Assembly: GCF_020283565.1 (NCBI RefSeq)
Contig: NC_060059.1
Span: 28,407,838-28,471,837, forward strand
DNA: 64,000 nt
Reading direction: 5' to 3'
Origin: Trifolium pratense
Taxonomy: Eukaryota > Streptophyta > Magnoliopsida > Fabales > Fabaceae
Shown piece after piece: positions 1 through 61,513 of this stretch (the stretch's first letter is position 1; the number at the start of each line of letters is the position of its first letter). The translations under genes were made by a program, and so were the position numbers. Under the pieces are notes generated by a model, which did no database searches, had not been told where the DNA came from, and worked only from the letters and a program-made list of their open reading frames with translations.

Positions 1-702
1 CAACACAGACAGCGCTGCTATTCAATTCCACAATCACAACAGGTGGAGACACACTCCTAAGAAACTAGGATTCACTCTTGCTTAAAAGCTTGCGAGTAAA
101 CCACACAACACAATAGAACAATCTCCGTACTTCAAAGCTTAGGAGAAGTTCACACTTACAACTCAATAACACTCAGGTCCTAAGCTTGCATCAATGAGAC
201 ACAAGAAAGGCTCACAATTAACACTCTAAAATCCTAAAAACACACGCTTTGTAAAACACGATTTTAGATGCTTGAAACCATATGCTTGCCTTCGTATTTA
301 TAGCAGTAGAATGACTTGGGCTTCAAGACAAAATTAGGGCTTCTAGAATTGCGGCAGCAGTGATATATTTTTGAAAATAATAGTTATATTTTTGAAACCG
401 CAAAAATATATTTTCCAAAAATATAATTCCTTTGGAAAATAAAACTAGGGTTTGGCTGCCTCATGAAACACATTAAACACGTGCGCCTTCTTCTGCAAGA
501 TACCTTGAACAAATTCTTCAAACAGATCTTCAAAAGATTGAGTAGAAAATAATAACACCTTAGCTGGCGCGCGCAGAACAGAGTCAGGTGTTGTTCCAAA
601 GTGTCTCAACATTTGTCACAACACTTGGGGTCAGCACACTTGTCTCAACACTTGGCTAAAATATGTTTTTGCAAAATGTAGCCAACATACAAAAACCCAA
701 CA
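1..702 (-). repeat. Element A 3' LTR, partial (window edge)
   Basis: Matches 9210-9911 collinearly. In element orientation it starts TGTTGGGTTTTTG at 702. About 339 bp of its far end lie left of the window, judged from the 1041-bp partner LTR. Confidence 0.93.
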
Positions 703-717
703 ATCTCCCCCTTTGGC
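703..717 (-). other. Element A polypurine tract
   Basis: On the minus strand a purine run reading CCAAAGGGGGAGAT directly abuts the TG of the 3' LTR. This is the expected position and composition of the plus-strand primer for reverse transcription. Confidence 0.85.
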
Positions 718-1018
718 AAATTTTGGCTAAAACAATATTAGACCAGTGTATAGAGAGATACAGTATTACCTTTCCTTCAAGTCAACATGATCACACAACT
801 AGGAAAGAAAGTAACACACAATAAAACTACCTCAAAGAGATCTAAGTAGCATCAGAGGTAATGCAACAGCGGAATAAGAACAACAGGGAAAAATAAATTC
901 CCATATAACATCTGAGAAAAATAAATTCTCAGTCATAAGAGATAGTGGACTCAATAGTCAGGTGCCATAACACTTGGCACAACATTCGTCATCAAATACA
1001 TTCAGGCGATCAAGAGAT

Positions 1019-1262
1019 ATTATCACTCACACTCCCCCTGAATTCATGCATACACACACCAGATAGAGTAATATTCACTACTCCCCCTCAGTACATGCAT
1101 ATTACTCACACTCCCCCTCAATACGAGCATACGAACACATATTATCACTCACACTCCCCCTGAATTCATGCATACACACACCAGATAGAGTAATATTCAC
1201 TACTCCCCCTCAGTACATGCATATTACTCACACTCCCCCTCAATACGAGCATACGAACACTA
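1019..1262 (-). repeat. 122-bp tandem duplication with multiplied PPT-like tracts
   Basis: Two near-identical 122-bp copies, 1019-1140 and 1141-1262, lie between the env-like ORF and the 3' PPT of element A. Each carries three ACTCCCCCT words, which are purine tracts on the minus strand; another lies near 1353. Extra PPT copies upstream of the 3' LTR are a known trait of Sireviruses. The rest of 703-1552 is AT-rich non-coding with short CA repeats and holds no convincing gene. Confidence 0.85.
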
Positions 1263-1552
1263 GTACAACAACAGTCACCAGATGTGGGAACATCTGTCTT
1301 CACACTTGTCACACACACACACTTCACACTTGTCACACACACACACTACTCCCCCTTTTTAGCCACAATTTAGACAAACATCATGCATAGGAAATTGGAG
1401 TGTACCAGAGCATAGAGAATATCAGTGTGCAGTTATTACAGACCATAAAGCACACACAGGTGCTAGAAATTCAGGTCCTTGCCCAAAAAAAAAGGAACAA
1501 CAAAAGAAACACCAAAAGTACATCAGAAACAAATATAAGGAAACATCAGCAA

Positions 1553-3855
1553 TCAAATTGAAGAACTTTCATCAGAGTCCTCCATCACATCCTCAGAACC
1601 ATCCTCAGACTCACTAGCCTCTTCTCCTTCTTGTCCATTTGGCTCACCCTCAGCCATCTCAGCAGCTTCCTCAGCCTTGAGTGCCTCAATCACACGGTCT
1701 ATTTTCAGCTTCCTGGCCTCAAGAGCTCTGCTAGTTTCAGTAAGATCAGCAATCATCTGTTTCCTTGAAAGTACACCACCCTGGACAGATGTGCCAACAC
1801 CTGCTGCAGCATTTGTCCCATCCAGCAGCCTCTGCTCAATCACCAACACCCCTTTCCTTTTACAAGGAACATCAGTACTCCTTAGTATATCTGGGTGTTG
1901 CTCAAGAATGATATTGCATAGCAGAGTAGGGAGAGCAACTGGCTTCTCAACAGCATAAGTCAGGGCATGGCTTAAAGTTTCATGAAAGAAATAAGCTCCA
2001 TAGTCAAAATTGGCTTTTGTGCCCACAGCATAAATGAACTTACCCAATCCTCTTGCTACATCACCTGAGTGGGTTGTAGGCACCCAATTATGTGCAGCAA
2101 TCCTATTTAGAACAGCATAGAATGGTGAGAGGGAAGTTGCAGACAGTTTTGCCTTACTTGGCCACACTTTAATTTTTCCACCAGTGAGGACCTTGCAGAT
2201 TTCATTATCTGTGGCTTTTAGAGGAGCCACTTCATCAGAACTTCTTTGCAGATATTGATTAATCACAATTGGTGAGAAATTCACACACTTTCCACGTACA
2301 AACACCTGCCTGTACTCAGGACTTGCTGGGTCATTACAGTTTGCAGCCACATTAATCAAAAATTCCTTGACAAGCCTGTCATAGCACTTGTCCAAACCAA
2401 CCACTGTTTTCATCAAACCTGCATACTCAAGAGCTTCAACAACAAGAGGGCATTCAAGAATATCATCTTTCAAATTTCTTTCTAGAGCCAGCCTCCTGTG
2501 ATACACAAATTTCCATCTTGCAGAACCATTTTCCAGATGAAATGATATATTGTCTAAAGGAGCATAGGGAACTGTTTGAGGGATCTTCTTCCTTCCTATA
2601 CTCTTCCTAGATGTGCTGCCAGATGCAGCAACATCTGTCTCCGGTACAAAATCAGAATCACTAGTTGGTGGAGCCTTCCTTTTCCTAGTCTCAGTTCTAG
2701 GCACCACCTTACTGACAGGTTTTGGAGGTCCATATAGGGGCTTTTTACCAGTAGCCTTTCCAGCCTTAGAGGGTTTGGGTGTTTGGACAGGTGTGTTAGT
2801 AGCCTCTACAGTTTTACCAGCCCTACTTCTAGTCCTCCTAGCCACACTAGCTTCAGAATGTGCAGGAATAGCCTTATCACTAGCAGTAGTTTCATTTTCA
2901 TTAGCAATTATTACCTCAGGAGTTTCATTCACAACTTTATCAGGAACAGCTTCTTTATCAGTAGCCTTAGGTGGGGGACTCTCATCAGACTCAGAATAGT
3001 CCACCAGATTTTCTTGTGCCAAAGATGTGGGAACATCTGGCACCACATTTGGCGCAGCGCCATGTGTTGCAACATTCGGCGTAACATGAGTCTCAGGAGC
3101 AGTTTCTTTGAGAGACTCATCAGCAACAGCCTTATTGGTCTCAGTGGAAGCACCAATATTAGCATCAACAACAGTAGGGGGTTAAGAACAGTTTTCCCCA
3201 ATTTTTCAGACATAGCAGGGTCCTTTAAACCTAGGGTTTCAGCAGATTTTGGTGTATTAAGACCTAAATTAACAGAAATCTTACCAGATGCAGTAACATT
3301 AACCTCTGCAGCTTTTACGACAGGAGTAGCAACACCACTCGATGGAAGTGGATCAACATGCAGTTCAGACATTGTAAAACTTCTCCTTGATTCAGACTTC
3401 GATTTCTTGCTCTTACGTTTTGAACTTTTAATTGCAGCAGGAGAGGAAGGATTTGTATTCGTTCGCGATGATTTATCCTTCTTTGCAACGGATTTTCTCC
3501 TTATCTTTGGACTTGTGGCAGGTATGGTGTTGAGAGGAATCGCATTTATCGCCACTTGTGGTGACGGAACATCTTCATTCTTCGTTGGTGAGGATTTTCC
3601 AGAATCAGTCATGATTATTGAGTAAGATTTTCTGAGAAATGTAAAGATTAGAACAAAATTGGTGAAGAAGTTGGAGAGATTTTGAGCGAGAGAAGATGCA
3701 GTTCTGTTTGTGTTTGGAACGAACACAGGAAGTTGAGCAGTTGGTTGCGTGTTTTGGAAATAAAATAAATGTTGTAATGATTTCCCTTTGTAAACGTGCA
3801 GAGAGTGTAGGAGGGAAGATAAAGTAACTGTTGTACACTCTCCTTGCAATAACTG
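1553..3855 (-). pseudogene. Element A third ORF (env-like), frameshifted
   Basis: This frame continues directly from pol after a single UAG and would be reached by readthrough. An internal ATG at 3613 could also start it. The N-terminal part (to about 3180) is rich in Lys, Ser and Pro. The C-terminal part (1553-3046 and upstream) has a folded-looking region resembling the 'putative plant transposon protein' domain seen beside Sirevirus and other legume elements, then a Glu/Asp/Ser-rich tail. The two parts lie in different frames, with the break at a run of five G on the plus strand (3177-3181). A one-base indel in this copy is the simplest explanation, so the full product is probably not made. 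'Env-like' rests on position; I see no clear signal peptide or fusion peptide. Confidence 0.75.
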
Positions 3856-3861
3856 CTATTG
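3850..3861 (-). promoter_or_regulatory. Readthrough-type stop context at the end of pol (CAA-UAG-CAG-UUA)
   Basis: The pol stop codon (3856-3858) reads CAATAGCAGTTA on the minus strand. It fits the tobacco-mosaic-virus type leaky context UAG-CAR-YYA with the preceding CAA. The frame downstream stays open into the env-like ORF. Stop-codon suppression at this junction is known for soybean SIRE1; its use here is inferred. Confidence 0.75.
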
Positions 3862-6800
3862 ATTTTCAAATAGGCAAATTCCTAATTTGCCCCTCAATTT
3901 TTCAAATTGACTTGCGTCCAAAGCTTTAGTAAAAATGTCTGCTAACTGTTCTTCAGATGTAATGTGCTCAAGTGTAACAATTTTTTCTTCTACAAGCTCC
4001 CTTATAAAATGATGGCGTATATCAATATGCTTAGTCCTACTATGTTGAATAGGATTTTTAGAAATGTTTATAGCACTCAGATTGTCACAGTAAAGTGTCA
4101 TGACATCTTGCTCAACACTATACTCCTTCAACATTTGTCTCATCCATAACAATTGAGAGCAACTACTCCCAGCTGCTATATATTCTGCCTCAGCTGTTGA
4201 TAGAGACACACTATTTTGCTTCTTACTAAACCAAGATACTAGATTGTTTCCCAAGAAGAAACATGCACCAGAGGTGCTCTTTCTATCATCAGCACTTCCA
4301 GCCCAATCTGCATCACAATATCCAACTAAGGTAGAATCATTGCCATGAGAGTATAGAATTCCATAGCCACATGTGCCATTGACATATTTGAAGATCCTCT
4401 TTACTTGAGTCAGATGACTCATCTTGGGTTCAGATTGGTATCTAGCACAAACTCCAACTGCAAACATGATATCAGGCCTGCTAGCTGTGAGATATAGTAA
4501 GCTCCCAATCATACTTCTATAGAGACTTTGATCCACATCAACCCCTTTCTCATCTTTGGTAAGCTTCAAGTGTGTAGGTGCAGGTGTCCTTTTGTGACTA
4601 CCACCTTCCATACCAAATTTCTTCACAATGTTTCTTGCATATTTTTCTTGAGAGATAAATATGGTATCTTCCATTTGTTTGACCTGAAGACCTAAAAAAT
4701 AAGTTAGCTCACCTACAAGACTCATTTCAAATTCAGATTGCATTTGATGCACAAAGTGTTCCACCATTTGTCGCGACATTCCACCAAATACAATATCATC
4801 CACATATATCTGAGCTATCATTAGCTTCCCTTTCTCTTCCCTTACAAACAAGGTTTTGTCATTTCCACCCTTTTTGTATCCATGGCTGACAAGAAATTCA
4901 GTCAACCTTTCATACCATGCTCTAGGGGCTTGTTTCAATCCATAAAGTGCTTTCTTTAGTTTGTAAACATGGTTAGGAAAGCTTGGATCTACAAACCCTT
5001 TTGGTTGTTCAACATAAACCTCTTCATTTAGATAACCATTTAGGAATGCACTTTTTACATCCATTTGGTATAGCTTGAATTTCAAGATGCATGCCACAGC
5101 CAAGAGTAATCTTATGGACTCCAAGCGAGCAACTGGAGCAAAAGTTTCATCAAAGTCTACTCCTTCTATCTGGGTGTATCCTTGTGCTACAAGTCTGGCT
5201 TTATTTCTAGTAATGTCACCATTTTCATCAGTCTTGTTCTTGTACACCCACTTTGTACCAATAACATTTACACCATCTGGTCTAGGTACTAGATCCCATA
5301 CCTCACTTCTTTTGAACTGAATTAGTTCATCCTGCATAGCATTGATCCAGTATTCATCAGTCAAAGCTTCTTTGACATTCTTTGGTTCAATCTTGGATAT
5401 GAAACATGAATTGGAGATTGCTTCTTTTGATCTTCTTGTTGCAATTCCTTGATTTGGATTTCCAATGACAAGTTCCAGAGGATGATTCTTCTGTATTCTA
5501 GTAGATGGTCCCTTGTTTGGTCTAGGAACCTCTGTAGTAGATTCAGAATGTTGATCAGGTTCAGGTTCAGATTGATCATCATCAGGTGTTGGGACAGGTG
5601 TTATGACATCTGTCTCTTCAGCTGGATCTGCACTTGTTGTATCACTATCATCAACAACAACATTAATTGATTCCATCATAGTTCTTGTTCTGGAGTTAAA
5701 AACCCTGTAGGCTCTGCTGTTGGTTGAGTAACCTAAAAATATCCCCTCATCACTTTTGGGGTCCAATTTTCTCCTAGGTTCTCTATCTGCCAAAATATAA
5801 CATTTTGACCCAAACACATGGAAATACTTCACAGTAGGCTTCCTATTCTTCCATAGTTCATACAGTGTTGTAGCAGTACCTTTTCTTAATGTTACTCTAT
5901 TGTGAATGTAACATGCTGTATTCATGGCTTCAGCCCAGAATTTGTAAGGAACATTTTTGGCATGCAACATTACTCTAGCAGATTCTTGTAAGGTTCTGTT
6001 CTTTCTCTCAACCACACCATTTTGTTGAGGTGTAATTGGTGAAGAAAATTCATGAATTATTCCTTCAGCAGTACAAAAGTCAGCAAATTTAGAGTTCTCA
6101 AACTCCTTACCATGGTCACTTCTAATTCTTACAATACCACAATCTTTCTCCTTTTGAAGTTGTAAGCAAAGATTTTTGAATTCTTCAAAAGTCTCAGATT
6201 TTTCCCTAATGAAATTGACCCAAGTATATCTAGAGAAGTCATCAACAACAACAAGTACATATTTCTTACCTCCAAGACTCTCCACTTGTATGGGCCCCAT
6301 CAGATCCATGTGTAGTAACTCAAGAACTTTAGAAGTGGACAAGTGTTGCAACTTCTGGTGCGACACTTTGGTTTGCTTCCCAATCTGACATTCACCACAG
6401 ATATTGCCTTCTTGTATTTGTAAACTTGGTAGTCCTCTGACAGCTTCTTCTGATATGACTCTCTTCATGCTCTTTAGGTTAAGGTGTCCTAATTTTTGAT
6501 GCCACAGCTTAACCTCTTCATTTTTAGTTAAGAGACATGTAGATACATTAGCTTCTTCAAGGGGGGTCCACAAGTAGCAATTGTCTTTTGATCTAACACC
6601 CTTCATAAGGATGTTTCCTTCATTATTGCTGACTAGACATTCATTTTTTGTAAAGTTGACTCTCATGCCTTGATCACATAGTTGGCTTATACTAATTAGA
6701 TTGGCAGTTAAGCCTTTTACAAGGAGAACATTTTCAAGTTTTGGTAGACCATTGTCAATCAGTCTTCCAATACCTTTGATTTCCCCCTTTGCTCCATCTC

Positions 6801-8799
6801 CAAATGTCACAAAGCTTGTGGCATAGGATTTTATTTCTTTCAAATACTTTTCAACACCAGTCATGTGTCTGGAACAACCACTATCAAAGTACCAATCTTC
6901 TTTTGATGATGCTCTGAGAGATGTATGAGCAATCAAACTTTTCCCACTGCTTTCAGCTGTATACTCCTTGGTATTTGTTGTTTCATCTTTTTGCTTCCAT
7001 TCCATCTTTGTTTTAGTGATGGATTGATCAGATTCTTGTGGAATTTCACTTGGATATCCATACAGTTTGTAGCAATAAGGCCTTATGTGCCCCTTTCTTC
7101 CACAGTGATGACATCTCCATGAATGGTACCTGCTTCTTGGTCTAGGTATAAACCTAGGTCTCTGCCATCTTTGCTGATGTGGTGCCACATGTGGCAACAC
7201 TTGTCTCTGCTGTCTAGGAGACAGGTGTGGCGACATCCTGTCATGCATTTTTGGAGATGGTTGTTTACTTATCTCAGGCATGTATTTCCCCTCTTTGTTG
7301 TAATCCATAATCCTATTAACATTTTTGTATTCATACCCAATGCCAGTTTTGGATCTGCTAGGAACAGGCAGAGTTTCCAGGATTTCATCTAGATCACTTC
7401 CTTTGAATAGCCTAAGAACATGCTTCTTTAAATTCTCAAGATGAGAGTTTAATTCAGTTACCTCTTCATTCAGATGGGCTATTTCAGTCAGTTGTTTGAT
7501 CTTGTCAGCTTCTAAGTTGATGATAGTTGCCTTCTGTTCCTCAATGATCTTTAAACTATCTTCCCATTTAGTACTAAATTCAGAGATTCTTGACATATCA
7601 GCAGCTTTCTCAGTTTGCAATTTAGTGATTGTTTCTTTTTGTTCTTCAGAAACTCTGCAGACTTCTGCACTCTTCAGACACAGCTTTTTATATGATTCAG
7701 CAAGTTCATCAAAGGTCAGTTCTTCTTCACATGATTCAGTGTCAGATGTGCAAACACTTGTCAATACATGTATAGCCTTTGCAGTATCAGTTTCTCCTTC
7801 AGAATCTTCATCTGACCAAGTTACAGTTAACCCCTTCTTTTGTTTCTTCAGAAAGGTACCACATTCACTTCTAATGTGACCAAACCCCTCACATTCATGG
7901 CATTGAACACCTTTATTTGGAGCTGATTTTTCATCTGTTACAGGTTTTCTGAAGTTCCTGTAAGTGTTGCGCCCAATGTCAGCTGCACCTGTCTTAGAGC
8001 GTTTGTCCATTCTCTTCAGTACTTTATTAAATTGTTTTCCCAAAAGAACCATTGCATCAGAGATGCTTTGTTCAGACTCTGTGTCACTCAGTTGATCTTC
8101 TTCCTCAGCATTTGAAACAAAGGCAATACTTTTGTTTTTCTTATCCATCTTTTCATTTGCAGCTACCTCATAGGTTTGTAGTGAACCAACCAGTTCATCT
8201 AGCTTCATATCTGTGATATCCTTTGCTTCTTCTATAGCTGTGACTTTCATGTCAAACTTCTTAGGTAGAGACCTGAGCATTTTTCTTACCAGCTTTTCTT
8301 CAGGTATCTTTTCACCCAAGGCATCAAATTGATTGTCAAAATCAAGTATGGTCATGTGAAAATCCTGAATGGTTTCATCATCATTCATTCTAAGATTCTC
8401 AAACTTAGTTGTTAGGAGTTGTAGCTTAGATAACTTCACTTTAGAGGTACCTTCATGAACAGTCTCAAGAATTGTCCAAGCTTCCTTAGCACAAACACAC
8501 TTTTTGATGAGTCTGAATATGTGTTTGTCAACACCATTATATAGTGCATATAATGCTTTTGAGTTTGCAAGAGCAAGCTCATCCTCTTCTTTGGACCATT
8601 CTTCAGCAGATTTCAACTCAAGAGTAGGTTTACCATCTTTGTCCATCTTCACAGGTGGAGTCCACCCTCTCAGAATTGCCTTCCAAGTCTTGCTATCAAT
8701 TTGTTTTAGAAAGGCCATCATGCGGGACTTCCAATAGTCATAGTTTGAAGCACCAACCAGAAGAGGTGGTCTGGTAACAAAACCTCCTTCTTTGTCCAT
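3856..8799 (-). CDS. Element A Gag-Pol polyprotein (Copia/Sirevirus), intact frame
   Basis: A single frame of 1647 codons if translation starts at the MDKEGG methionine (8799); the frame is open upstream but there it overlaps the PBS and LTR, so that extension is unlikely to be a start. Approximate domains: UBN2-type gag 10-250; CCHC knuckle 298-311; coiled-coil stretch 380-500; second CCHC 558-572; protease with [13 protein letters not shown] near 638; integrase HHCC then D (HMDLMG, about 830), D (SDHGKEF, about 893) and E (GVVERKN, about 928); RT from about 1155 with YVDD near 1331; RNase H about 1490-1605 ending in FENQ. All catalytic motifs I looked for are present. The product would form the particle and copy and integrate the element RNA. 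No frameshift is seen, and with near-identical LTRs this may still be functional. Confidence 0.93.
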
Positions 8800-8856
8800 C
8801 CTTGCCAGAAAAAAAGTTTCCCTGGAGCTCACCCTAAAATTCAGAACAGGGTGCCT

Positions 8857-8868
8857 GCTCTGATGCCA
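8857..8868 (-). other. Element A primer-binding site (initiator tRNA-Met type)
   Basis: The minus strand reads TGGCATCAGAGC two bases after the LTR end. It is one mismatch from the canonical TGGTATCAGAGC complementary to plant initiator tRNA-Met; element F keeps the canonical form at 20021-20032. Confidence 0.85.
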
Positions 8869-8870
8869 AT

Positions 8871-9911
8871 TGAAATTCCTGGCACACAGTGGACAGGTGT
8901 TGCTCAAGGTGTAGCAACACTTGTCTGTTGTAGACAGATGTTGTTACTAGTGCGCCAACACTTGTCTATAAACAGAGCAAATAACATAAAACAATACAAA
9001 CAGTAAAGTAAATAACACACGAGAGTTGTTAACCCAGTTCAGCCTAAAGCCTACTCTGGGGGATACCAATCCAGGAATGAAGTCCACTATCAGCAGTATT
9101 ACTTCGAAGCTAAACTCACCCGTTTACAACTTCTCACTTAATCACTACCCAATGACACTTCTACCTAGGAACTCCTAGATATGAGACCCCGTCCCAATTC
9201 CCACCTTAGCAACACAGACAGCGCTGCTATTCAATTCCACAATCACAACAGGTGGAGACACACTCCTAAGAAACTAGGATTCACTCTTGCTTAAAAGCTT
9301 GCGAGTAAACCACACAACACAATAGAACAATCTCCGTACTTCAAAGCTTAGGAGAAGTTCACACTTACAACTCAATAACACTCAGGTCCTAAGCTTGCAT
9401 CAATGAGACACAAGAAAGGCTCACAATTAACACTCTAAAATCCTAAAAACACACGCTTTGTAAAACATGATTTTAGATGCTTGAAACCATATGCTTGCCT
9501 TCGTATTTATAGCAGTAGAATGACTTGGGCTTCAAGACAAAATTAGGGCTTCTAGAATTGCGGCAGCAGTGATATATTTTTGAAAATAATAGTTATATTT
9601 TTGAAACCGCAAAAATATATTTTCCAAAAATATAATTCCTTTGGAAAATAAAACTAGGGTTTGGCTGCCTCATGAAACACATTAAACACGTGCGCCTTCT
9701 TCTGCAAGATACCTTGAACAAATTCTTCAAACAGATCTTCAAAAGATTGAGTAGAAAATAATAACACCTTAGCTGGCGCGCGCAGAACAGAGTCAGGTGT
9801 TGTTCCAAAGTGTCTCAACATTTGTCACAACACTTGGGGTCAGCACACTTGTCTCAACACTTGGCTAAAATATGTTTTTGCAAAATGTAGCCAACATACA
9901 AAAACCCAACA
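8871..9911 (-). repeat. Element A 5' LTR (1041 bp)
   Basis: Bounded by TG...CA on the element strand (TGTTGGG at 9911, CA at 8871). It abuts the PBS on one side and element B sequence on the other. It holds a TATAAATA box and several copies of the ACACTTGTC word found throughout this family. Confidence 0.93.
9504..9511 (-). promoter_or_regulatory. TATA box in element A 5' LTR
   Basis: TATAAATA on the minus strand about 400 bp into the LTR, consistent with the U3/R boundary. The same box is seen in the left LTR near 295-302. Confidence 0.55.
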
Positions 9912-10058
9912 GAAGGTTCCATCATTGAGATAAGACCAACTAATGATTCCTCATTTCTCAGTTGAGATCTTGTCTTCCTTGGACTATCCTTGTTGCCTAA
10001 TATCAGTTCCTCTGGATGTGATGATTTGTATTTGAAAGTATTTCTTGGGGGCTCATCA

Positions 10059-10060
10059 TC
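10059..10060 (-). other. Splice scar 2 in element B (integrase region removed)
   Basis: Bases flanking this junction are contiguous with both ends of the 1305-bp segment 37112-38416 of B'. That segment starts GTAATT and ends CTGAAG on the sense strand. Confidence 0.85.
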
Positions 10061-10227
10061 TACTGTACCTGTACCTATTATCTTTCCTTTTTGATTGCCT
10101 CCAAAGCCAACAGATCCTCCTTCTTTCATAGTCAGCTTAGAAAATAGTTGTTTGTCACCAGTCATATGCCTTGAACATCCACTATCCAGATACCATGAGT
10201 GTTTCATGATATTTCTTTGAGTGGCAG

Positions 10228-10229
10228 GC
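10228..10229 (-). other. Splice scar 1 in element B (gag tail removed)
   Basis: The junction matches removal of 38586-39748 of B', which starts GTATTT after GATGAG and ends in a pyrimidine-rich CATACAG before CCTGCC. Confidence 0.87.
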
Positions 10230-11541
10230 TCATCAGTTACTTCTGAATCTGATTCTGATTCATCGTCTGAGCCTGCATCTGAGTCAGTTGAAGCCATCAG
10301 GGCTAGATTTGCCTCTTCTTCTTCCTCAACTTCTTCCTCAGATGATAGCTCTTCAAAGGTAGCCATCAGACTCTTTCTCAATTTACTCTTGAATTGTTGC
10401 TTCTTTGAGCTGTATCTTTTGCTTTTGTCTTTAGCAGACATTTCTGGACAATCAGCAATAAAGTGTCCAGGCTTCTTACAGTTGAAGCAATTCTTCTGAT
10501 CATCCTTTTTGCTGACAAAATTTCTGGAGCTGTTACCTCCTCTGAAATTTCTTTTGTTAAATCTGTTCCATTGCTGAAACTTGGTGAATAAAGCAAACTC
10601 ATCCTCATTCATCTCATCCTCTTGACCATCAGCAGAAGATTCTTCTTCAATATCAAGAAGCTGAGTCTTAAGAGCCTTAGAAGTAGTCTTAGTTGACTGT
10701 AAAGCCACTGACTTAGACTTCTTCTTAGTTTCTGAGTCAGCATCCAGAACCATCTCATGGCTTCTGAGATTGCTTATCAGAGCTTCAAGACTCAGAGTCT
10801 TGAGATTTTGAGCTTCCTCTATTGCAGTGACCTTAGGTCTCCAAGCAATAGGAAGACTTCTCAGAATCTTCTGAACATGGTCATAGGTTGAATAACTTCT
10901 CTTAAGAGCTTTAAGACCAGATACAAGGATTTGAAACCTTGTAAACATAGTCTCAATGTTTTCATCTTGTTGCATAGTGAAAAGTTCATATTGCCTTATC
11001 AAAAGACTAGCTTTAGCCTCTTGAACCTTTTCATTACCATCATAGGTAGCACACATAGAATCAAAGATAGATTTAGCAGTAGACTTGTTCTCTATTCTGA
11101 CATAATCCTCATGTCTAATAGCACCAACAACAATGTCCTTTACTCTATGATGCTTAGTGTAGATTTTTAAGTTAGCTGGTGTGAGTAACTTTCTATGCTC
11201 AATGGACAATCTTCCATGTTCATTTAAGTTTTCAAAAGTTACTCCCAACTCAACCAAATCCCACAACTCATGATCAATAGCAGTAATATTGCTATACAAT
11301 CTCTCTTTCCACCACTCAAATAATGATGCATCACCATTGAATATAGGGGCTTTTCTGTTGCCACTATGTTCATGTGATTCATTACTCAAGTAGTCAAAAC
11401 CAAAAGCATTTCTAGGACCACCACCAGCTCCACTGGCCTCACCTTCACCAGTGGTTCTAGTACTACTATCATCTCCTCCAGACATAGTGTTCTCACAAGA
11501 TCTTTACTGTCTCACTGTTAAGTGAAAGTAACAGACCAGGC

Positions 11542-11553
11542 GCTCTGATGCCA
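11542..11553 (-). other. Element B primer-binding site
   Basis: TGGCATCAGAGC on the minus strand, two bases from the LTR end, one mismatch from the initiator tRNA-Met complement. Confidence 0.8.
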
Positions 11554-11555
11554 AT

Positions 11556-12675
11556 TGAAGGTGTGAAAACACAAGAAGGGGGGGTTGAATTGTGTTTTAG
11601 CTAAGTTAAAACTTTTTCAAGTTCTTAACTTAACTACGTTAGCAGCGGAAAAATAACACAATAAATAACAAGAGAGAGAGAAAGATCACACAAGCAATTT
11701 ATACTGGTTCCTCTCACAAAACGAGAGTAGTCCAGTCCCCTTGCACTTCCAAGGGATTTCACTATAATCACACAAGATTACACCTGCTCAAGCACACAAG
11801 CAAGAGACTTCTCAATACTGCTCAAGCACACAAGCTTAAGACTTCACACTTAAGCACACAAGCTTAAGTTTCACACTTAAGCACACAAGCTTAAGTTTCC
11901 TCAAGTAATAGAAAAGTATATAAAAATATACAAGTACTCTTAGATGAACCTAAAGAGAGCAAATACAAAAAGTACAGAGTATTTGGCTAAAGTGCAAAAA
12001 ACACTTGATGAGAGGTTCAGAGCTTGTATATCACAGAGTTCAGAGTTTGTTCAGCGCACGTTCAATAATTGATAATAGTTATTTTTATTGTAGCTGAATC
12101 TTCTAGTATATATACCACTAGAAAAGAGTCGTTGCAAAAAGAACCGTTGGAGCTGATAAACTTTTGTCTTCAAGCAGTCTGTCTTGATGCAGTTTGGTTG
12201 TATCCAAAACTAAGAAAGAGTTTCAGTTACTTTGACTACTGCAGAGTGGACTTTCCTTATTCAGCTAACAAAACTGAAAACCCACGTTCTCAAGTTAGGA
12301 CAGACAAAACAAAGGTAGCTGAACTGATCAGGCTTGAAAGGTCCTTTTCTTCATTGGTAGAAGAGTTGACTTGTAAAGAGAATCTTCACAGCTTTCAAAG
12401 AGATCTTCAGAGATTGATGAAGCTTGTAGACAGATAAGAAGTTCTGAAGTCTTCATCCTCTGAACGTTGTAACCTCTGAAGTCCAACATCTTCTGAGCGC
12501 TTGTGAACTTCTGAATTTCACATCCTCTGAACTTCACTCAGAGCTTATATGATGCTTATATCTGCGCACTTAAAATAAATTTTTAGTCCTTCCAATTTGT
12601 TAATTAATACTTTGTTATCATCAAAACCTTTATATATTTAGGGGCAAACATTTTTAAATCAATTTTGTTCCAACA
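11556..12675 (-). repeat. Element B 5' LTR (1120 bp)
   Basis: TG...CA bounded and similar to the B' LTRs (1083-1085 bp). The extra length is mostly additional copies of the CACACAAGCTTAAG unit near 11815-11895. A TATATATA box lies at 12107-12114 on the minus strand. The end near 12430-12550 is dense in CTTCTGAA/CTCTGAA words. Confidence 0.9.
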
Positions 12676-14985
12676 GAAAGTCCTAAGTTTGAAAACCTCC
12701 TTGAAGTGAATGATAAGGATCAAATGGAAGAAGAAAGGAAAGCTCCCGAACTGAAGCAACTCCCTTCACATCTAAAGTATGTGTTCTTAAGTGATGATGC
12801 TTCGTTTCCAGCCATCATTAGCAGCAAACTCACTCATTTGGAAGAGGAAAAACTGTTGAGGGTCTTGAAGTCCAACAAAGCCGCAATGGGGTGGACTATC
12901 TCCGATCTAAAAGGAATAAGTCCCACTTTTTGCATGCATAAAATCAAGTTGGAAGCTGAGTTTAAACCAGTTGTGCAACCTCAACGAAGACTCAATCCTA
13001 CCATGAAGGAAGTTGTGAAGAAAGAGGTGCTGAAACTCTTGGAGGCCGGCATGATATACCCTATTTCCGATAGTGCTTGGGTATCTCCGGTCCATGTGGT
13101 GCCGAAAAAGGGGGGGATGACTGTGGTGAAAAACGATAAGAATGAGTTTATTCCATCTCGGACTGTTACGGGATGGCGTATGTGCATTGACTATCGCCGA
13201 CTCAACACCGCTACTAGGAAGGATCACTTTCCCTTGCCATTCATGGATCAGATGTTGGAACGGTTAGCGGGGCAGGAGTTTTACTGTTTCCTTGATGGTT
13301 ACTCAGGTTACAATCAGATTACTTGTCCCTTTGGGGTGTTCGCATATCGAAGAATGCCATTTGGATTATGTAATGCCCCAGCAACGTTTCAAAGATGTAT
13401 GCTTGCCATCTTCTCCGATATGATGGAGGACACAATGGAGGTATTTATGGATGACTTTTCGGTTTTCGATCACTCAGCTTTGAAGTATTTGTTGACAAAG
13501 GGCGATTCCAAGCCGCGATTGTTGCGATGGATGTTGCTTTTACAGGAGTTTGATTTGGAAATTCGCGACAAGAAGGGGGTAGAGAATGTGGTGGCTGACC
13601 ACCTCTCAAGGCTAAGCAATTCGGATGTTACTAATAAAGAGGAAGCTATTAAGTGTGAATTCCCGGATGAAAAATTGCTTGCAGTATCTGAGTTTCCATG
13701 GTTCGGTGACATTGCCAACCTCAAAGCTAGTGGATTCATCCCGGAAGAAATGACGGCACAACAAAAGAAGAAGCTCTTCGCGGATTCGCGACATTATTTC
13801 TGGGATGATCCATTTTTGTTCAAGATGAGCAATGATGGCATGATTCGTCGATGTGTGGCCGATAGTGAGATCCTAGGTATTATGTGGCATTGCCATAACT
13901 CACCATGTGGAGGGCATCATAGTGGCCCTAGAACAGCCGCGAAGGTTTTACAATGTGGATTCTTTTGGCCAACGATCTTTCAAGATTGTATGGAGTTTGT
14001 AAAAGCTTGTGATGCATGTCAAAGATCGGGGAGTGTTTCTAAAAGAGATGAGATGCCTCAGCATGGCCTAACTGAAGTCGAACCATTTGATGTATGGGGG
14101 ATCGATTTCATGGGACCATTTCCTTCGTCCCAATCTAATGTGCACATCTTGGTTTGTGTGGATTATGTTACAAAGTGGGTCGAAGCTACAGCCTGCCAAG
14201 CCAATGATTCAGCCACTGTGGTGCGGTTTCTCAAAAAGAACATATTTACAAGATTCGGGGTGCCGAGGATCTTAATCAGCGATGGGGGAAAGCACTTCAT
14301 TAATCAGCATCTTGAAAATTTGTTGCGGAAGTATAATGTTAAGCACAAGGTTGCTACTCCTTATCATCCTCAAACTTCGGGACAAGTTGAAGTGTCCAAT
14401 CGCCAGTTGAAACAGATTCTTGAGAAGACGGTTTCTTCATCAAGGAAGGATTGGTCAGTCAAACTCGATGATGCGTTATGGGCATACCGTACTGCATTTA
14501 AAACCCACCTCGGTTTTTCCCCGTATCAGTTGGTTTATGGGAAAGCATGTCATTTACCAGTGGAGCTTGAGCATAAAGCATACTGGGCTGTTAAGCAACT
14601 GAACATGGATGCCACACTCGCCGGTAGAGCTCGGTTGTTGAAGCTCAATGAGTTAGAGGAATGGCGCGAAAGGGCATATGAGAATGCGGTACTGTACAAG
14701 GCAAGGACTAAACGCTATCATGATGCGAAATTAGTTCCAAAAGAGTTTCACGAAGGACAGTTGGTGTTACTGTTTAACTCTCGATTCAAGTTATTCCCCG
14801 GTAAACTCAAGTCCAAGTGGTCTGGTCCTTTTGTAGTTAAGGAAGTGTTTCCACATGGGGCTGTGGAAATCTTCAAATCAGAGGAGGAGAATCAGAGTTT
14901 TAAGGTGAATGGGCAAAGGTTGAAAGTTTATCGTGGTGGAGAGCTCGTTCGGCACAATGTGGCTCTTTTCTTCCAAGACCCTTAG
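12676..14985 (+). pseudogene. Element D' partial Pol (Athila-like), RT/RNase H partly removed
   Basis: Open from the B junction to the TAG ending LFFQDP. Visible: RT start ([20 protein letters not shown]), FMDDFSVF, then directly DHSALKYLL of RNase H, the His/Cys zinc region ([10 protein letters not shown]...CDACQ), and integrase D (GIDFMGPFP), D (SDGGKHF) and E (GQVEVSNR). Missing against D: 33 bp before CPFGVF (about 13322) and the RT thumb plus first half of RNase H at 13468/13469. The frame stays open, but the RT/RNase H cannot be functional. Confidence 0.88.
13468..13469 (+). other. Splice scar in element D' pol
   Basis: TTTTCG joins directly to ATCACTC. In D the same exon end is followed by GTAAGT, and the same restart is preceded by TTGTTTTTACAG, 621 bp apart (46898-47518). 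Confidence 0.85.
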
Positions 14986-17273
14986 GGGCATGGAACGTCA
15001 AGCATCGGGACGTTAAACAAGCGCTGGTTGGGAGGCAACCCAACGGTTTCTAATGATTAGTTGTTTTGTTTTGCAATATGTAGGTAGGTGCGCAGCATTC
15101 AGCAGCAAACAGAGCAAAAACAGAGGACTGTTGAAGTGTACTACGCTGGGGGCGTAGTGCAATCACGCGCGGCGTGAAGGCTTCCTACGCGCGGCGTGAT
15201 GATGGAAATGGATAAGTTAGCTCTCTGACTAGTGATCACGCGCGGCATGGTATCTTTCACGCGCTGCGTGAACAAGGCAGAGAGGAAAGTGGTTTTGCTA
15301 AAGTGGTCACGCGCGGCGTAAGTAAGACTACGCGCGGCGTCGTCAAGTCAACCTGATCGTTTGAATTTGGTCAACATGACCGTTGGAGTTTGGGCCAAAG
15401 AGAAATTTGAAATAGATCACGCGCGGCGTGGAGTAAGTCACGCGCAGCGTCATCAGGTGACTCTGTTCTGATTATTTAAACTCTCAATTTCTAGCTAAAG
15501 ACGCACCATTCATCAAGGTTCAGATTCATCTGCGTGGTTTTAGGCTTCAGATCTATCAATTTCACTAAGTTCTTAAGTGCTATGTGAAGCCTAAAATCAG
15601 TGCAAGTGAATTCAGTAAACCTTCATTTCATTAATTCAAGCTATGAGGGTTTTCGCAGGTATTAAGGTATACAGTCTGGTGTTTGGTTTTAGGCCTCAGA
15701 TCCATCCATCTATCTCAGTATCTCAAAAAGGATGTGAGTCCTAAAATCAATGCACGTGACTACTATTAACCTTCCTTTTCTTCAATCATAGATTATGCAC
15801 TTTTGTTGGTAAGAAGTTTCAAAAACGGTGAAGTAAGGGCTTCTCTGCTCTCTAATCTCTGCTGCTGCTGCTGCTACACTACTACTCTATCTTTACTTTT
15901 TACTTTCGTCTATTTTACTTTCGTTGGTTTGTAATAATATTTGATGTTGCTTGGATTTGGCTGGATTGTATTATTTTAACCTTTGAATTTGAATTTTGTC
16001 TTGTTTTATTGTGGAATGACGTTTACTTTTAGAGTTTGTTTCAATACTTTGGCATGTTCCTTCTAGTTACTTGAGTATCAATTGCATGATTTTCTCCGTG
16101 TGTAATTTGTGAAATCTGCAGTGCAATAGCTTGTTGCACTCATGTGATCAAGAGGCAAAGGAAGGGAACGCACACTTTTTGACCGGTTCTTTGATTCGAC
16201 CCAACCGAGAGGTATTGAGCCAAACACTCTTTTTTTTCTTCTATGTGTGATATCCACTCATGTATTGTCTCTCGATTTTGCTTGTCGTCTTTTTATTTGA
16301 TTGGTACTTTTGTAGCACACACGAGGCATGTTCCTTGGTACCTTTGAGCCTTTCTATCCACCCTTACATATAACTATCCTTTGCTTAACCATTTTGAGCT
16401 GAAAAAGAAAATGTTATTTCGCACAACTTTAAGAAATTTTTGATGTAGAAAAAAGGAATGACTTTCTTGGAGGTTAGGCACCTAATTAGTGGTTGATGCG
16501 CATTGTTCACCACTAAGTTTGTGGTTGCTCTTTGGAATTAGCAACAAATAAAGTTTAGGGTGAGGGTACTAGAGAACTTATAAAAGTTTTGATTGAAAAA
16601 TTTCAAAAATTGCAAGGCAAAGAAGATAAGAAAATAAGTAGTAAGAAAAAAAAGAAAATAAAAGAAAAAAAAAAAAAACAAACAAGATGAATGAATGTGA
16701 AACAAAAAAATATGGAAAAGAAGTGATAGCCTTGAATTCAAAAGAATTGCAAAACTTTCTTTGATGATTTGAAAAAGTTCTCTAGTCCACTATTTTTCAA
16801 AAGGGGTTTGGTTTATGAAAATGTTCTTTGACTAATAGGGGGATCTAACTCCAAGTTTTTCTACTACTTATCCCAAAATGTCACCATCCACCCTAGCCAA
16901 GCCACGTTATAACCCTAAAAGACCTCTAAAGTGTGTGCACAAAGTGAACCGAATGAATTCTTAGACTACTTGCAAAATTATTGTTGACTTGCATTGATGT
17001 GTTGATTTGAGTGAAGAACCAAAAACTGGAGAGTGCATGTGAGTAGTGTGATGAAATCATAGAGCCTTGGTCGAAAAGTGTGAACTACTTGAAAATGTCT
17101 TGCGGGAACGATTGTGCAATTGAGCATTGTTTGCAGGTGGATCATTGATCATCAGGTGATTCTCACGTATGTATGATTCGAGTGAATTTAAGGAAAATGC
17201 CAAGGTCTTGACACAAAAGCTTGAGGTAAAAGTTGTTTCCTTGAGGACAAGGAAAGGTTTAAGTTTGGGGTTG
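14986..17273 (+). other. Element D' 3' non-coding region
   Basis: About 2.3 kb between the pol stop and the PPT, matching 43169-45380 of D in opposite orientation. It contains the CG-rich hairpin array and AT-rich filler with a poly-A stretch near 16650-16680. No env ORF is recognisable, although many Athila elements carry one here. The PPT AGTTTGGGGTTG ends at 17273. Confidence 0.75.
15141..15452 (+). repeat. CG-rich hairpin word array in D' 3' region
   Basis: About ten dispersed copies of TCACGCGCGGCGTGA-like words (arms TCACGC/GCGTGA, three-base loop), separated by unrelated 10-30 bp spacers. The array starts with the variant CTACGCTGGGGGCGTAG. Confidence 0.85.
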
Positions 17274-18506
17274 TGATGACGGATCGTCACACTCTCTAAT
17301 CCATGCCTATTTTAGCAACATTAGATGCATTTTAGTAGGTTTTTAGCAATAAATATAAGAGAAATCTAATCATAAGCTTGATTACTTGTTTTGCAAGAAA
17401 ACAGGAAAAATTGCAGGAAATGGATGATTTTCACTACGCTGGGGGCGTAGCCCATCACGCGCCGCGTGATGGAGATCACAGGGAGCCTTGATTTTCACTC
17501 TGACCACGCGCGGCGTGATATCTGACCACGCGCGGCGTGAAGCCTTGTTCAAAAAGAAGATTGCTCTCTGACTTGATCACGCGCCGCGTGATACCGTTAT
17601 CACGCGCGGCGTAGTTGATGGATCTGCAACCACGCGCGGCGTGATAGATCTGGCGCGCGGCGTGGTTGCGTTCAGTATATATGGTTTCTGCATAATTCTG
17701 TTAGATGGTTGGAAAATTCTGCAATTTTGATCTACATTCTGGGTTTGGAAACTTCAAGATTGGGATTGAAGACTCCAGAGGATAGCTCCAAGCACATCGA
17801 TAGCATGGATTCACAAGCCATGACGTTGAAGCTAGGACGCGAACGAAGGGAGATGAGGAGCTAAGCTTCTTTGGAGGTAGGATCTAGGATAGCTTAGGAT
17901 GTAGATGAATCTCATGTAATCTGCTTAATTGTAAGGATTTACTCTGTAACAGTGTTTACTTAATGCAATTCGTCTCTTAATGCTTTATGATCCTTCATTA
18001 GTGTTGTAATGATTTCGAGTTAAGTCACGTGCGAGAGTATTGATTTAATTTCTGAACTGAATTGCATTGAGAACTCGAGTGTTTCCGGTCGAGAGATTGA
18101 GAGATAGAGTGTAGCGAACGATTGACGCGCTTTAAATTCATTCGTTGTAGGTAGCTTCCGCCCGAGAGATCGGGGGAGTATCGACAACGAATAGAGTGGA
18201 TTTTGACAAGAGATTGCGATTCACTAATTTGTCGATCTAGTTGTGAACACTTGAGTAGATTCCTATGATATAGTAGATTGCATGTGGTTTAGCTATAGAC
18301 TAGGCGATTCCGATGATTCTACCTCGCTTTTCCATTATATCAAAGCACGTTTTCTAACAATTCATCACTCAACATACCCCCAATCTATGTGTATTTCTTG
18401 CATAATGTTTATGAACACTATTAGACTAGTTTAATCACACAATCCCTGTGGATCGATATTTTTATTACTACGTGGTAATTCGTTCACTTGCGAAAATTAT
18501 CCATCA
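17274..18506 (+). repeat. Element D' 3' LTR (1233 bp)
   Basis: Runs TGATGACGG...CCATCA, directly after the PPT. Homologous in inverse orientation to the 1304-bp LTRs of D. Contains a second hairpin array (17434-17665) and a TATATAT box near 17681. Confidence 0.88.
17434..17665 (+). repeat. CG-rich hairpin word array in D' LTR
   Basis: Eight or so copies of the CACGCGCGGCGTG word, again opening with CTACGCTGGGGGCGTAG as in the 3' non-coding array. Confidence 0.85.
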
Positions 18507-25364: not shown

Positions 25365-27564
25365 TGTAACACCCTAACCCATACTACCCTTAAAAACGTA
25401 ATATTAAAAACTTTTTAACAAGTGTAAAGGCAGAGTGTCACGCGGTAATTAAAAACACAAGCATACACACAGAGCGTCATGAAGTTTAACATGAAAAGCA
25501 ACAGCGGATTCAATAAAACCAAGCATGCATATATATATATATATATATACATAAGCCATATTCATCCCTAAGGATGTCACTTATACAAGAACTAGCATAT
25601 AAAAAAGGTAACACCGATTTACGATGAAAGCCAAGCGTAATCCCCGACTCGATGTTACATTACCAGAGCAATTACTATTTACAAACTCTAACCAAAAGCT
25701 AGCACTAAAAGGAGAAATCTATGCTAAGTCTCCTCACCAAAAGATACTTCAACACCAAGCTATAACAGCAGTCTAATCGTTGGCACAGTCCTCAGCCTGA
25801 ATATCTGAACCCCCAAAGGTCTAGCAAATAACACAAAGCAGAGAGTTAGAAAACATAATCGCATATCATACGAGTATAAGAAAGGCCTTACACTTTCGAA
25901 CTATCATACATATTCTAACTCACGCCAAAACGTCGCACTAAACAGTTATCAATTAATAAAGTTTAACACAATTCAACCAGATAATGTCACATACCATTTA
26001 TCAAATATATGCGCATTTACCCTAATGTATCTAATGCCAATCAATTCACTGTCATGCCATCCCTAGACATGACTAAATGCATGTGGTACCAAGGCGTCTC
26101 ACCAACGGTGGACCAAGAACAGTTTTATATCTTGCTGGATATGTCGGAACTTACCGAACCATCTTATCTCCCTTGGATAAGCCAACACAGTTTTATATCC
26201 TGTTGGATAGCAGCTCTGGACTCATGGATTCATCTAATCCGATCCTCGGCTTCATTATGGACACATAATCCATTTTCGTTATTGGAACCCAAGTTTCCAA
26301 TGTTCACATACAATCATGAATGCATGTATGTATGCACATATCAATCATATGATATTCTCTAGCTCGAAGCTACTCTTTTATGAATGCGGGAACACAATCC
26401 TAACACATTCACTTAACATTACAAATTAATGCCAAAACATCACATTACTCACTTTAAAACTGTAACTCATTGCATACACGTTTATCAATCATATAACGAT
26501 TAACAATAAGCATTAACAGCATCAACATGTATCAACAATCATGGAAGGATACCCTTAAACCATGTTACAAGTGCCTAATTACACTTACAACCATTAACAA
26601 AAGTTGCAGGTTCAGTACTGTTCGCTAAGCGAAGTAGTAGCGAACAGGTAGCGAACTATTCGCTAAGCGAAACTCCGTTCGCTGCAGCGAACTACGTCAG
26701 AGGATTACAGGTGCATGGCGAACAGGTAGCGAACTATGGCGAGCAGGTTCGCGTAGCGAATCTCCTGGTCGCTTAGCGAACTACACCAGAAAAATATCTG
26801 TTCTTGAGTTTTTCTAAGGCGGTTTAACATTGAATCAGCTCAAAAATTCATTCAAACATGTTATAAATTCTTATAAACAGCAATTTCAAACATATATGGT
26901 ATCAAGGAACATTAATCATCCCTTCCAAACATCCAAATACATCAAACAATCATAATCATGCCAATTTCTTGGATTTTAAGCAACTTTCATAAACTTTTCA
27001 AACATGATTCAAACACATACATATCTTTCATGGAATCAAGCTAGTGATTAACACATACAAAGTGATGATGAAGAACATCACACTCACATACAAAAGCTTA
27101 ATCAAAAGTCTAAAAAGAAATTGAGTGGGAGAGTTCGGGAATGGAGACATAGACAATCTCCCCTCTCCTTGCCACTCAAGAATCATGAATTCTAATCTCT
27201 TACCTTAGCAAAGTTGATGATCCAAGCCTTTCCTCTTCTCTCTTGCTCGTGATTCTCTCTTCCTCTTCCTAGGGTTTTTGCTTTGCTCTTGCTTACTAAC
27301 TTCTAACTTCTCAAAGAAATAATTGTGATACTATTCATTGGTTTGACTTACTACTTATACTACTTCCTAAAGTCATGAACCAAGCCCAAGTGGCTTAGGC
27401 CCAAATGGCCTCTCACGCCCATTAAGCCCAAAACAAAGGTTCTCGCGTCTAATAACTTACGCTCGGCTAAATAATTATTCGTCGCTCACTAAAATAATAA
27501 AAGCCAATTAATAAATAAAATAACATTTAATAAAATATACGAATACGAAAAATGGGTCGTTACA
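25365..27564 (-). repeat. Tekay LTR 1 (2200 bp)
   Basis: TGTAACACC to GTTACA on the plus strand. Differs from LTR2 and LTR3 by T at 25438, 25781 and 25822 (C in both others). (AT) run of about 21 bp at 25529-25549. Serves as the 3' LTR of unit C. Confidence 0.92.
26620..26781 (-). repeat. TTCGCT/AGCGAA hairpin word array in Tekay LTR 1
   Basis: A dozen or so AGCGAA/TTCGCT words, including the palindrome TTCGCTAAGCGAA twice and TTCGCTGCAGCGAA. Repeated at the same place in LTR2 (about 55829-55990) and LTR3 (about 62594-62755). Confidence 0.85.
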
Positions 27565-38400: not shown

Positions 38401-38600
38401 GATAGGGAAGAATTACCTACTGTACCTGTACCTATTATCTTTCCCTTTTGATTACCTCCAAAGCCAACAGATCCTCCTTCTTTCATAGTCAGCTTAGAAA
38501 ATAGTTGTTTGTCACCAGTCATATGCCTTGAACATCCACTATCCAGATACCATGAGTGTTTCATGATATTTCTTTGAATGGCAGGCTGTATGAGAAACAA
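35442..38600 (-). CDS. Element B' Pol (protease, integrase, RT, RNase H)
   Basis: About 1050 codons with no ATG at the start; the frame opens just upstream of LIQPAIQRN, within the last bases of intron 1. Protease [10 protein letters not shown] near residue 20, integrase D (LLHIDLFGP, about 212), D (SDHGGEF, about 273) and E (GVVERKN, about 307), an acidic linker about 460-500, RT with YVDD near 741, and RNase H about 900-1003 with CDADYAGD and STAEAEY. All motifs look intact. It lies in another frame than gag, separated by the gag TAA (38603-38605). Removing intron 1 joins it in frame to Gag residue 421, giving a predicted 1468-residue Gag-Pol. Confidence 0.92.
37112..38416 (-). other. Candidate intron 2 of B' (1305 bp, spans integrase)
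   Basis: Sense strand: ...ACAGTAG then GTAATTC, ending GAGTCTGAAG then ATGATG. Exactly this segment is absent from B. Its length is a multiple of three, so pol stays in frame but loses integrase. The acceptor is less pyrimidine-rich than that of intron 1. Confidence 0.78.
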
Positions 38601-39748
38601 CTTTAATCATTGCGATATAACTCTTCATCAAGGTTAATGATAAAGTCATCCCAATATTCTTCCTCTTCATTTATCAAGTTCTGATTGTTAACTTGAGAAC
38701 TTGTCAGCCATTGGTCTAGGACATAAGCCCTTCTTCCTTTGCATAAGACTTGTTTCCACATTCTAGGTAGGACATATCCTTTCCTAGTTGGTAAATCTGA
38801 ATGATACATTATTTCAGCTTTTGGTACCCATCTTCTGGGTCCACGCTTGTTAGTCCAAACATGCTTACTATGTTGTCTAGTGTTGGAGAAGGATCTTGGT
38901 TTGGAATAATAATCTTTTTGAAATCTTTTCTTTGTTTGAAATCTGTTATTGTTCCAAGATTTGGATTGTTTATGATTCCAGGGTTTGTATTTATCATCAA
39001 TCCTATGTTCTGATTGATTATATCTACTTACTCTAGAATCATAAATAATCTGAGTCTTGTACTTCATCTGAGATTTGGAGTTTGAATTTTTTCTTTTAAA
39101 AACTTCTGATCTTTTAAATTGACTAGCTTCAGGTACTGAAGTTCCTTTGGATCCAGAATTTGAAGTTTCAGATGTTGAAGCTTTCAGAACTTCTGAACTG
39201 ATGTTCTCAGGTTCTGAACAACTTCTATCTTCTGAACTTTTCTTTCCAGATCCTGAGAAACTAGGTTCCTCTGAGCTGTCAGCTTCTAAATCACTCAGAT
39301 CATCTTTGTCATTTTCAACATTACCAGGATTCTTTCCCTCTTCACTTTGTGGAACAACATAATAAACCCAAGATTTTCCAACCTTTTTGGCAGAGGTCTT
39401 CAGCTTTGAATATGTTCTACCATATTCATAGCCAAGTCCCTCTCCTCTATGTCTCATGACATTATAAACAAGATTAGCAGCTTTGCTCTTACCAAGGTTG
39501 AGATGCACAAACTGTTGGAGAGCTATTTCCTGCTCATCAATAGGTTTGTGACAAACAGCACAACCCTTTTCAAAGTCATTTACTCTATTCAGAGTTTCTT
39601 GATACAGACCTTGAAAGTGTTCTGCTTGTTCAGTCAGAGTGTTAAGCTTTTCTTGTAAAACTTTTTGTTTACTTAATACTCTGAGATGTTTCTCAATGAC
39701 CTTGTTAAGTGCAGTTATAAGTTGAGATTTAGAGCAGTCAGAAAATAC
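38586..39748 (-). other. Candidate intron 1 of B' (1163 bp, spans gag tail and gag stop)
   Basis: Sense strand: ...GATGAG then GTATTTTC, ending TTGTTTCTCATACAG then CCTGCC. Exactly this segment is absent from B. It contains the last 381 codons of gag and the gag TAA. Its length is not a multiple of three, and removal puts gag and pol in one frame. Confidence 0.85.
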
Positions 39749-50915: not shown

Positions 50916-50940
50916 TATTGCCTAATTGAATCAATCACAA

Positions 50941-50958
50941 TCCCCGGCAACGGCGCCA
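50941..50958 (-). other. Element D primer-binding site
   Basis: TGGCGCCGTTGCCGGGGA on the minus strand, six bases from the LTR. This is the PBS style of Athila/Tat-group elements, distinct from the initiator-Met type of the other families here; the exact tRNA I leave open. Confidence 0.85.
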
Positions 50959-50964
50959 AAAACT

Positions 50965-54452: not shown

Positions 54453-54558
54453 GATTCCTGAACGAATCACAACTAGACGTTAGAATGTACTAACAGTGTA
54501 CCCAACACATGCTCATACGAGAAAAGAAAAGTCCTAATTGGTTCACATGAACCGACCT

Positions 54559-54570
54559 GCTCTGCTACCA
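54559..54570 (-). other. Tekay primer-binding site, unit C
   Basis: TGGTAGCAGAGC on the minus strand, one mismatch from the initiator tRNA-Met complement, four bases from LTR2. Repeated in unit E at 61245-61256. Confidence 0.8.
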
Positions 54571-54574
54571 CTAT

Positions 54575-59653: not shown

Positions 59654-59659
59654 GTCAGA

Positions 59660-61421: not shown

Positions 61422-61424
<3 letters not shown>

Positions 61425-61509: not shown

Positions 61510-61513
<4 letters not shown>

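Follow-up and report, generated by a model that had tools for sequence, protein, structure and literature searches.

The stretch analysed here, referred to below as the window, comprises 64,000 nucleotides of Trifolium pratense DNA (RefSeq assembly GCF_020283565.1, contig NC_060059.1, positions 28,407,838 to 28,471,837 of the forward strand). It is plant DNA packed with nested long terminal repeat (LTR) retrotransposons, and in a protein search its proteins matched the T. pratense proteins P0001, P0002 and P0006 at 93-98%. The subject of this analysis is one of these retrotransposons, element B, which lacks two internal segments present in its relative B', located elsewhere in the window. The features of the two elements, and of element A which interrupts B, are listed below (ORF, open reading frame; PBS, primer-binding site). 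The coding pieces of B are designated exons 1 to 3.

9912-12675, minus strand: element B, portion within the window, left end truncated by element A (self-BLAST and end sequences)
11556-12675, minus strand: 5' LTR of B, matching both LTRs of B' (ends from the sequence)
11542-11554, minus strand: PBS of B, TTGGCATCAGAGC, which we take to be of the tRNA-Met type (sequence)
10229-11485, minus strand: exon 1 of B, Gag with CCHC knuckle, last bases GATGAG (alignment, domain profiles)
10228-10229, minus strand: junction 1 of B, GATGAG/CCTGCC (alignment to B')
10060-10228, minus strand: exon 2 of B, 169 bp, first half of the protease domain (alignment, domain profiles)
10059-10060, minus strand: junction 2 of B, ACAGTAG/ATGATG (alignment to B')
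9912-10059, minus strand: exon 3 of B, linker ahead of the reverse transcriptase, interrupted by element A (self-BLAST, alignment)
30058-52575, minus strand: element B', including a Gypsy-type insertion (41865-52268) in its 5' LTR; both flanks GTCCT (self-BLAST)
38603-41011, minus strand: ORF1 of B', long Gag, 802 amino acids (ORF list, profiles)
35442-38606, minus strand: pol frame of B', -1 relative to gag, open past the TGA at 38609-38607 (ORF list, profiles)
32742-34991, minus strand: ORF of B' encoding 749 amino acids, PF20167, presumably 'env-like' in the sense used for Sireviruses (ORF list, profiles)
38586-39748, minus strand: intron 1, the B' segment of 1163 bp missing in B, with the Gag tail, the gag stop and an out-of-frame gap (alignment)
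37112-38416, minus strand: candidate intron 2, the B' segment of 1305 bp missing in B, with the remainder of the protease, gag_pre-integrs, the integrase core and SH3 (alignment, profiles)
1-9911, minus strand: element A, a single-ORF Sirevirus within B, extending to the left beyond the window (ORFs, self-BLAST, profiles)

The right end of element A, at 9911, is its insertion point in B. Because A inserted at 9912, where a first-pass annotation made from the sequence alone had let B end, the reverse transcriptase-RNase H part and the 3' LTR of B should lie to the left of the window. Next to the 5' LTR of B, GAAAG at 12676-12680 is a candidate for one copy of a 5-bp target-site duplication.

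The domain profiles of B' (Pol_BBD, gag_pre-integrs, rve, SH3, RVT_2) follow the copia order protease-integrase-reverse transcriptase. Gag is large, with the CCHC knuckle at residues 332-348 and a long tail after the knuckle, and the 749-residue ORF is an extra one downstream of pol. By domain order, Gag size and the extra ORF, B' is classified as a Sirevirus (SIRE lineage, Ty1/copia). Sireviruses are described as abundant and specific to plants (PMC2829016). Those types whose pol is out of frame have been described as +1. Given its -1 (or +2) pol frame, B' may not be exactly this type. For out-of-frame pol of Sireviruses internal entry or ribosomal bypass has been proposed. In B' the gag ORF ends with TAA at 38605-38603 and the pol frame opens only past the TGA at 38609-38607, its first ATG being at 38564. 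Since the gag stop and the opening of pol leave no overlap, there is no room for a ribosome to slip, and -1 frameshifting was ruled out as the origin of a B' Gag-Pol.

In self-BLAST, B and B' were collinear, with 95.9-98.2% identity across the three coding pieces (98.2% for exon 2), and differed by two large gaps. In the sense direction the B' sequence reads GATGAG/GTATTT...TTGTTTCTCATACAG/CCTGCC at gap 1 and ACAGTAG/GTAATT...GAGTCTGAAG/ATGATG at gap 2, thus GT...AG at both, with an ambiguity of 2 bp (AG) each. The first-pass annotation had reported exactly two missing segments with these properties. Alignment of B to B' reproduced the lengths, the flanking bases, the GT-AG ends and the ambiguity to the base. 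The number two holds for the large gaps, but small indels also separate the elements, for example one of 6 bp just upstream of junction 1. The open Gag-protease-linker frame without integrase that it had described is free of stops from 11485 to 9912, across both joins, but the protease domain is cut, with positions 1-46 of the 81 in the Pol_BBD profile left.

To assess how often such ends arise by chance, 323,443 deletions were placed at random in this part of the sequence; 0.67% of them could be read as GT-AG. Among the 38,247 deletions with exactly 2 bp of ambiguity, sense GT-AG was found in 1.1% and antisense CT-AC in 1.2%. Two sense GT-AG joins would arise by chance in about 1 of 8,000 cases, if independent, in agreement with the earlier statement that chance GT-AG at both gaps is unlikely. 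Splice sites were then ranked with a rough matrix, by comparison among 260 GT and 469 AG dinucleotides. Donor 1 (GAG/GTATTT) ranked 5th of the GT and acceptor 1 5th of the AG dinucleotides. The acceptor tract TTGTTTCTCATACAG lies directly after the gag stop of B', and removal of intron 1 fuses Gag residue E421 to the pol frame, as in B.

Joins between Gag and protease were compared in other Sirevirus proteins. Three protein searches (the best 120 of 533 matches, the best 120 of 1,820, and all 91) gave 197 distinct proteins, of which 19 carried the protease motif in one of the two spellings sought, LDSGCS or LDNGCS. The tail between Gag and protease was kept in five of them (P0141, P0159, P0161, P0169, P0188) and missing from 14 (P0001, P0018, P0021, P0024, P0036, P0090, P0094, P0098, P0120, P0134, P0186, P0190, P0194, P0197). 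In nine of the tail-less proteins (P0018, P0021, P0024, P0036, P0090, P0094, P0098, P0120, P0134) the join was, within one codon, at the column where B has it. Four tail-less Citrus proteins join at the Val of the tail-bearing P0188 (DLNE/GLKK versus DLNK/VSDP); P0188 itself failed to align to B's column. Several tail-less proteins could be paired with tail-bearing ones up to the join. The closest pair was P0024 (DSEDEDE/ICTPRK) and P0078 (DSEDEDE/VLAQLS), 99% identical over 305 amino acids. The others were P0021 (SENETE/VCLRGS) and P0041 (SENETE/VYSKLT), 92%; P0036 (TDDIDE/VCTQRR) and P0011 (TDDIDE/VISKMS), 88%; and P0018 (DSEDENE/ICLRVK) and P0124 (DSEDENE/VYSKIP), 85%. For B (VTDE/PATQRN) and B' the value at the same join was 97%.

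The 13 concordant proteins cannot be counted as independent: P0098 has sequence in common with P0134, and the four Citrus proteins are alike, leaving about six groups as judged by eye. P0036 and the Citrus four were annotated on genome records, and gene prediction there has a preference for GT-AG. Contigs from jgi, ena or src are the source of the remaining eight. Because gene callers for such contigs normally model no introns, these eight joins are taken to be physical.

The codon at the donor was also surveyed in proteins that retain the tail. Among 82 aligned long Gags, 67 had a residue at the donor column; the 15 without one were mostly distant or poorly aligned, and P0020 (L at this column) was excluded for its short tail. 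Val, whose codon is GTN, was present in 63 of the 67, the others being P0004 (H), P0053 (A), P0060 (L) and P0182 (Q). Of the 21 columns printed, this one varied least (0.45 bits). In element A, a single-ORF Sirevirus, the corresponding codon is CTG. Because the same join recurs in other Sirevirus groups, the donor codon is conserved, and site scores and frame logic agree, junction 1 is strongly supported as a splice and very probably represents a spliced intron. As judged from these proteins, intron 1 seems to be common to different Sirevirus groups.

A 12-nt inverted repeat (38503-38514 and 38591-38602, 92% complementary) has one arm on the acceptor tract of intron 1. The hairpin over this tract folds modestly better than shuffled sequences (z -1.88; 5 of 200 shuffles were at least as good). 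Earlier work tied bypass to a conserved inverted repeat located where gag and pol of Sireviruses meet; the repeat in B', which may or may not correspond to it, could tune the splice acceptor instead.

Both sides of junction 2 are in phase 1 of the pol frame, and the frame is kept. It drops 435 codons, which encode the second half of the protease, gag_pre-integrs, the integrase core and SH3. Donor 2 ranked 14th of the 260 GT dinucleotides. The join is compatible with splicing, being GT-AG and in frame, and fits it less well than junction 1 does; splicing is nonetheless its likely origin.

These data suggest that B is probably a reverse-transcribed and integrated DNA copy of a spliced Sirevirus RNA related to B', intron 1 being a conserved Gag-Pol intron. 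Reverse transcription and integration are proposed because B is a DNA element with a 5' LTR and a PBS. Full-length RNA retaining intron 1 would encode the long Gag (802 amino acids in B'). Splicing of intron 1 would eliminate the frame break together with the gag stop and the tail of Gag. Translation of Gag would then continue into Pol, and this would be the element's route to Gag-Pol. A second, weaker intron inside pol may also have been removed from the RNA behind B. Because the leader, the PBS and the LTR ends are kept, the spliced RNA could have been packaged by proteins of intact relatives and copied by their enzymes, and its integration would have produced a defective processed provirus. 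The first-pass annotation, which had called B the copy of a doubly spliced RNA, was right in direction and is partly supported: strongly at junction 1, less so at gap 2, where splicing is compatible with the sequence. It was also incomplete, having overlooked the probable role of intron 1 as a conserved Gag-Pol intron. The balance tips slightly in favour of a more general scheme, in which Sireviruses with out-of-frame pol would make Gag-Pol by way of a conserved intron containing Gag tail and stop, its retention giving long Gag, and in which spliced RNAs would reintegrate as processed proviruses in several groups.

Several observations weigh against B as a copy of spliced RNA. Acceptor 2 was poor (rank 116 of 469). 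No other example of junction 2 was seen among the 197 proteins, which were inspected by eye and mostly only in the region of the Gag-protease join. The T fraction was 0.265 and 0.300 in the introns versus 0.23-0.25 in the exon pieces, a weak difference. The 3' half of B is outside the window. The fused proteins from jgi, ena and src contigs may derive from DNA or from assembled RNA. P0001, which stands for 14 clustered T. pratense sequences, has SEVTDEV/YLDSGC, leaving one codon past the donor and landing beyond the acceptor; on the B' sequence we infer a join at a shared GGTAT, without GT-AG. Shifted, non-GT-AG joins in family members had been named beforehand as a finding that would refute splicing, and P0001 may be such a case; either a true deletion or an effect of annotation could lie behind it. 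In the T. pratense annotations P0158, P0159 and P0161 the Gag tail passes into pol at other places still. P0004 departs at the donor column and resumes within the Gag tail.

Other observations concern the acceptor side. P0161 joins at PTTQGGIMNHSW, which matches the acceptor side of B. P0169 (jgi; contigs of up to 17,384 bases) has retained its tail. Even so, its entry into pol is the ICLRAKEKQRSW start found also in the tail-less P0098, as if one acceptor had been joined to a different upstream site. No relative was found in the viral contig collection, queried with the start of B' Pol and the alignment of fused proteins, or in a scan of the genome contig collection.

It is unlikely that junction 1 alone is a true splice and that gap 2 is an ordinary deletion, made by template switching in reverse transcription or by later recombination, which reads GT-AG by chance. 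The weak acceptor 2 and the lack of a second example would suit such a deletion, and P0001, P0018, P0021, P0024, P0036 and P0098 run on past the point of junction 2. The sense GT-AG ends expected in 1.1% of random deletions, the maintained frame and the rank of donor 2 argue for splicing at this gap as well.

Less probable still, B could belong to a non-autonomous subfamily whose members carry the gaps and depend on other elements in trans for their mobilisation; the splice or deletion would then have occurred once, long before the insertion. The frame of B is open and its gag looks constrained (417 codons compared with B'; nonsynonymous divergence, dN, 0.0086; synonymous divergence, dS, 0.091), and self-BLAST shows a divergence of about 4-9% between the LTR pieces of the two elements. 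By their gag divergence, B and B' both derive from constrained lineages. Such a subfamily would itself be compatible with an origin by splicing.

It is very unlikely that the tail-less Gag-protease proteins form lineages of their own whose DNA lost the tail, with a common deletion behind the shared column. One old loss of the tail is insufficient, because several groups contain matching forms with and without it, P0024 being 99% identical to P0078 up to the join. It is hardly credible that chance deletions with 2-bp microhomology, and no splicing, produced both gaps: deletions are common among LTR elements and P0001 has its neighbouring non-GT-AG join, but the chance of two sense GT-AG joins, the same join in other groups and the conserved donor Val all argue against it.

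The closest known parallel is the SDARE (splice-donor-associated retroelement) of murine leukaemia virus (MLV). There, LTR-element RNA that has been spliced is packaged and, once reverse transcribed, integrates to give a defective provirus (PMC2925334). As in an SDARE-like processed provirus, B retains the 5' LTR and PBS, and its gaps match introns with sense GT-AG ends. The MLV case is a mouse retrovirus and was shown by experiment, whereas B is a plant Ty1/copia element known from its sequence alone. The best reading, by analogy, is that B would be a plant counterpart of the MLV SDARE. Reverse transcription of spliced HIV RNA has also been described.

In Ogre, a Ty3/gypsy element of legumes, an intron between coding parts is spliced from a subset of transcripts, which allows the whole polyprotein to be made; genomic copies of the spliced form are not mentioned in the accessible portion of that source (PMC6317226). 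Junction 1 of B similarly joins coding parts, the B' intron differing in that it contains the Gag tail and stop. B' may work like Ogre, but it is no Ogre: integrase precedes reverse transcriptase, whereas the Ty3/gypsy order of Ogre is reverse transcriptase-RNase H-integrase. In the Ty1/copia elements EVADE and BARE1 the RNA is alternatively spliced near the end of gag, as proposed for B, and the frame ends, so that Gag only is made (PMC8892269, PMC3735527). In B the splice would instead open Gag into Pol, and the early stop created by short-GAG splicing is absent, the frame being open at both joins. Because Ogre joins coding parts by a splice and EVADE and BARE1 end the frame after Gag, the arrangement at junction 1 would be Ogre-like in a Sirevirus. 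Two spliced introns, as suggested for B, were found by direct RNA sequencing in the sunflower LTR elements Tyran and Varan, whose isoforms encode truncated Gag; there the evidence is RNA only, and the available portion of the report mentions no genomic copies (PMC7730604). In barley, copies of spliced BARE1 RNA were sought and not found. Splicing-based Gag-Pol expression in Sireviruses was absent from the titles and beginnings of abstracts listed, in a search that covered little of the subscription literature and in which several lists gave 20 of 22, 12 of 13, 12 of 57 and 12 of 31 entries. If the proposed reading is correct, the conserved donor and acceptor give a simple answer to how Sireviruses with out-of-frame pol express it, B is a DNA record that such spliced RNA existed, and, unlike the outcome for barley BARE1, spliced RNA of a plant LTR element has completed the cycle.

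Element A offers a single-frame contrast to B': its Gag and Pol share one open frame of 1683 amino acids (3856-8907). Its LTR pair is 99.86% identical over the 702 bp visible in self-BLAST, and A is therefore probably very young. An exact tandem duplication of 122 bp is present at 1017-1260.

The remaining elements are of Gypsy type. Head-to-tail copies with 99.3-99.8% identity occupy 25365-30057 and 52576-63537, one of them broken by B'. Related elements in opposite orientations lie at 12676-18501, interrupted by B, and at 41869-48347, within the LTR of B'. Where the repeated Gypsy copies meet (61421-61513), a near-perfect palindrome of about 92 bp is found, 97.8% identical to its own reverse complement.
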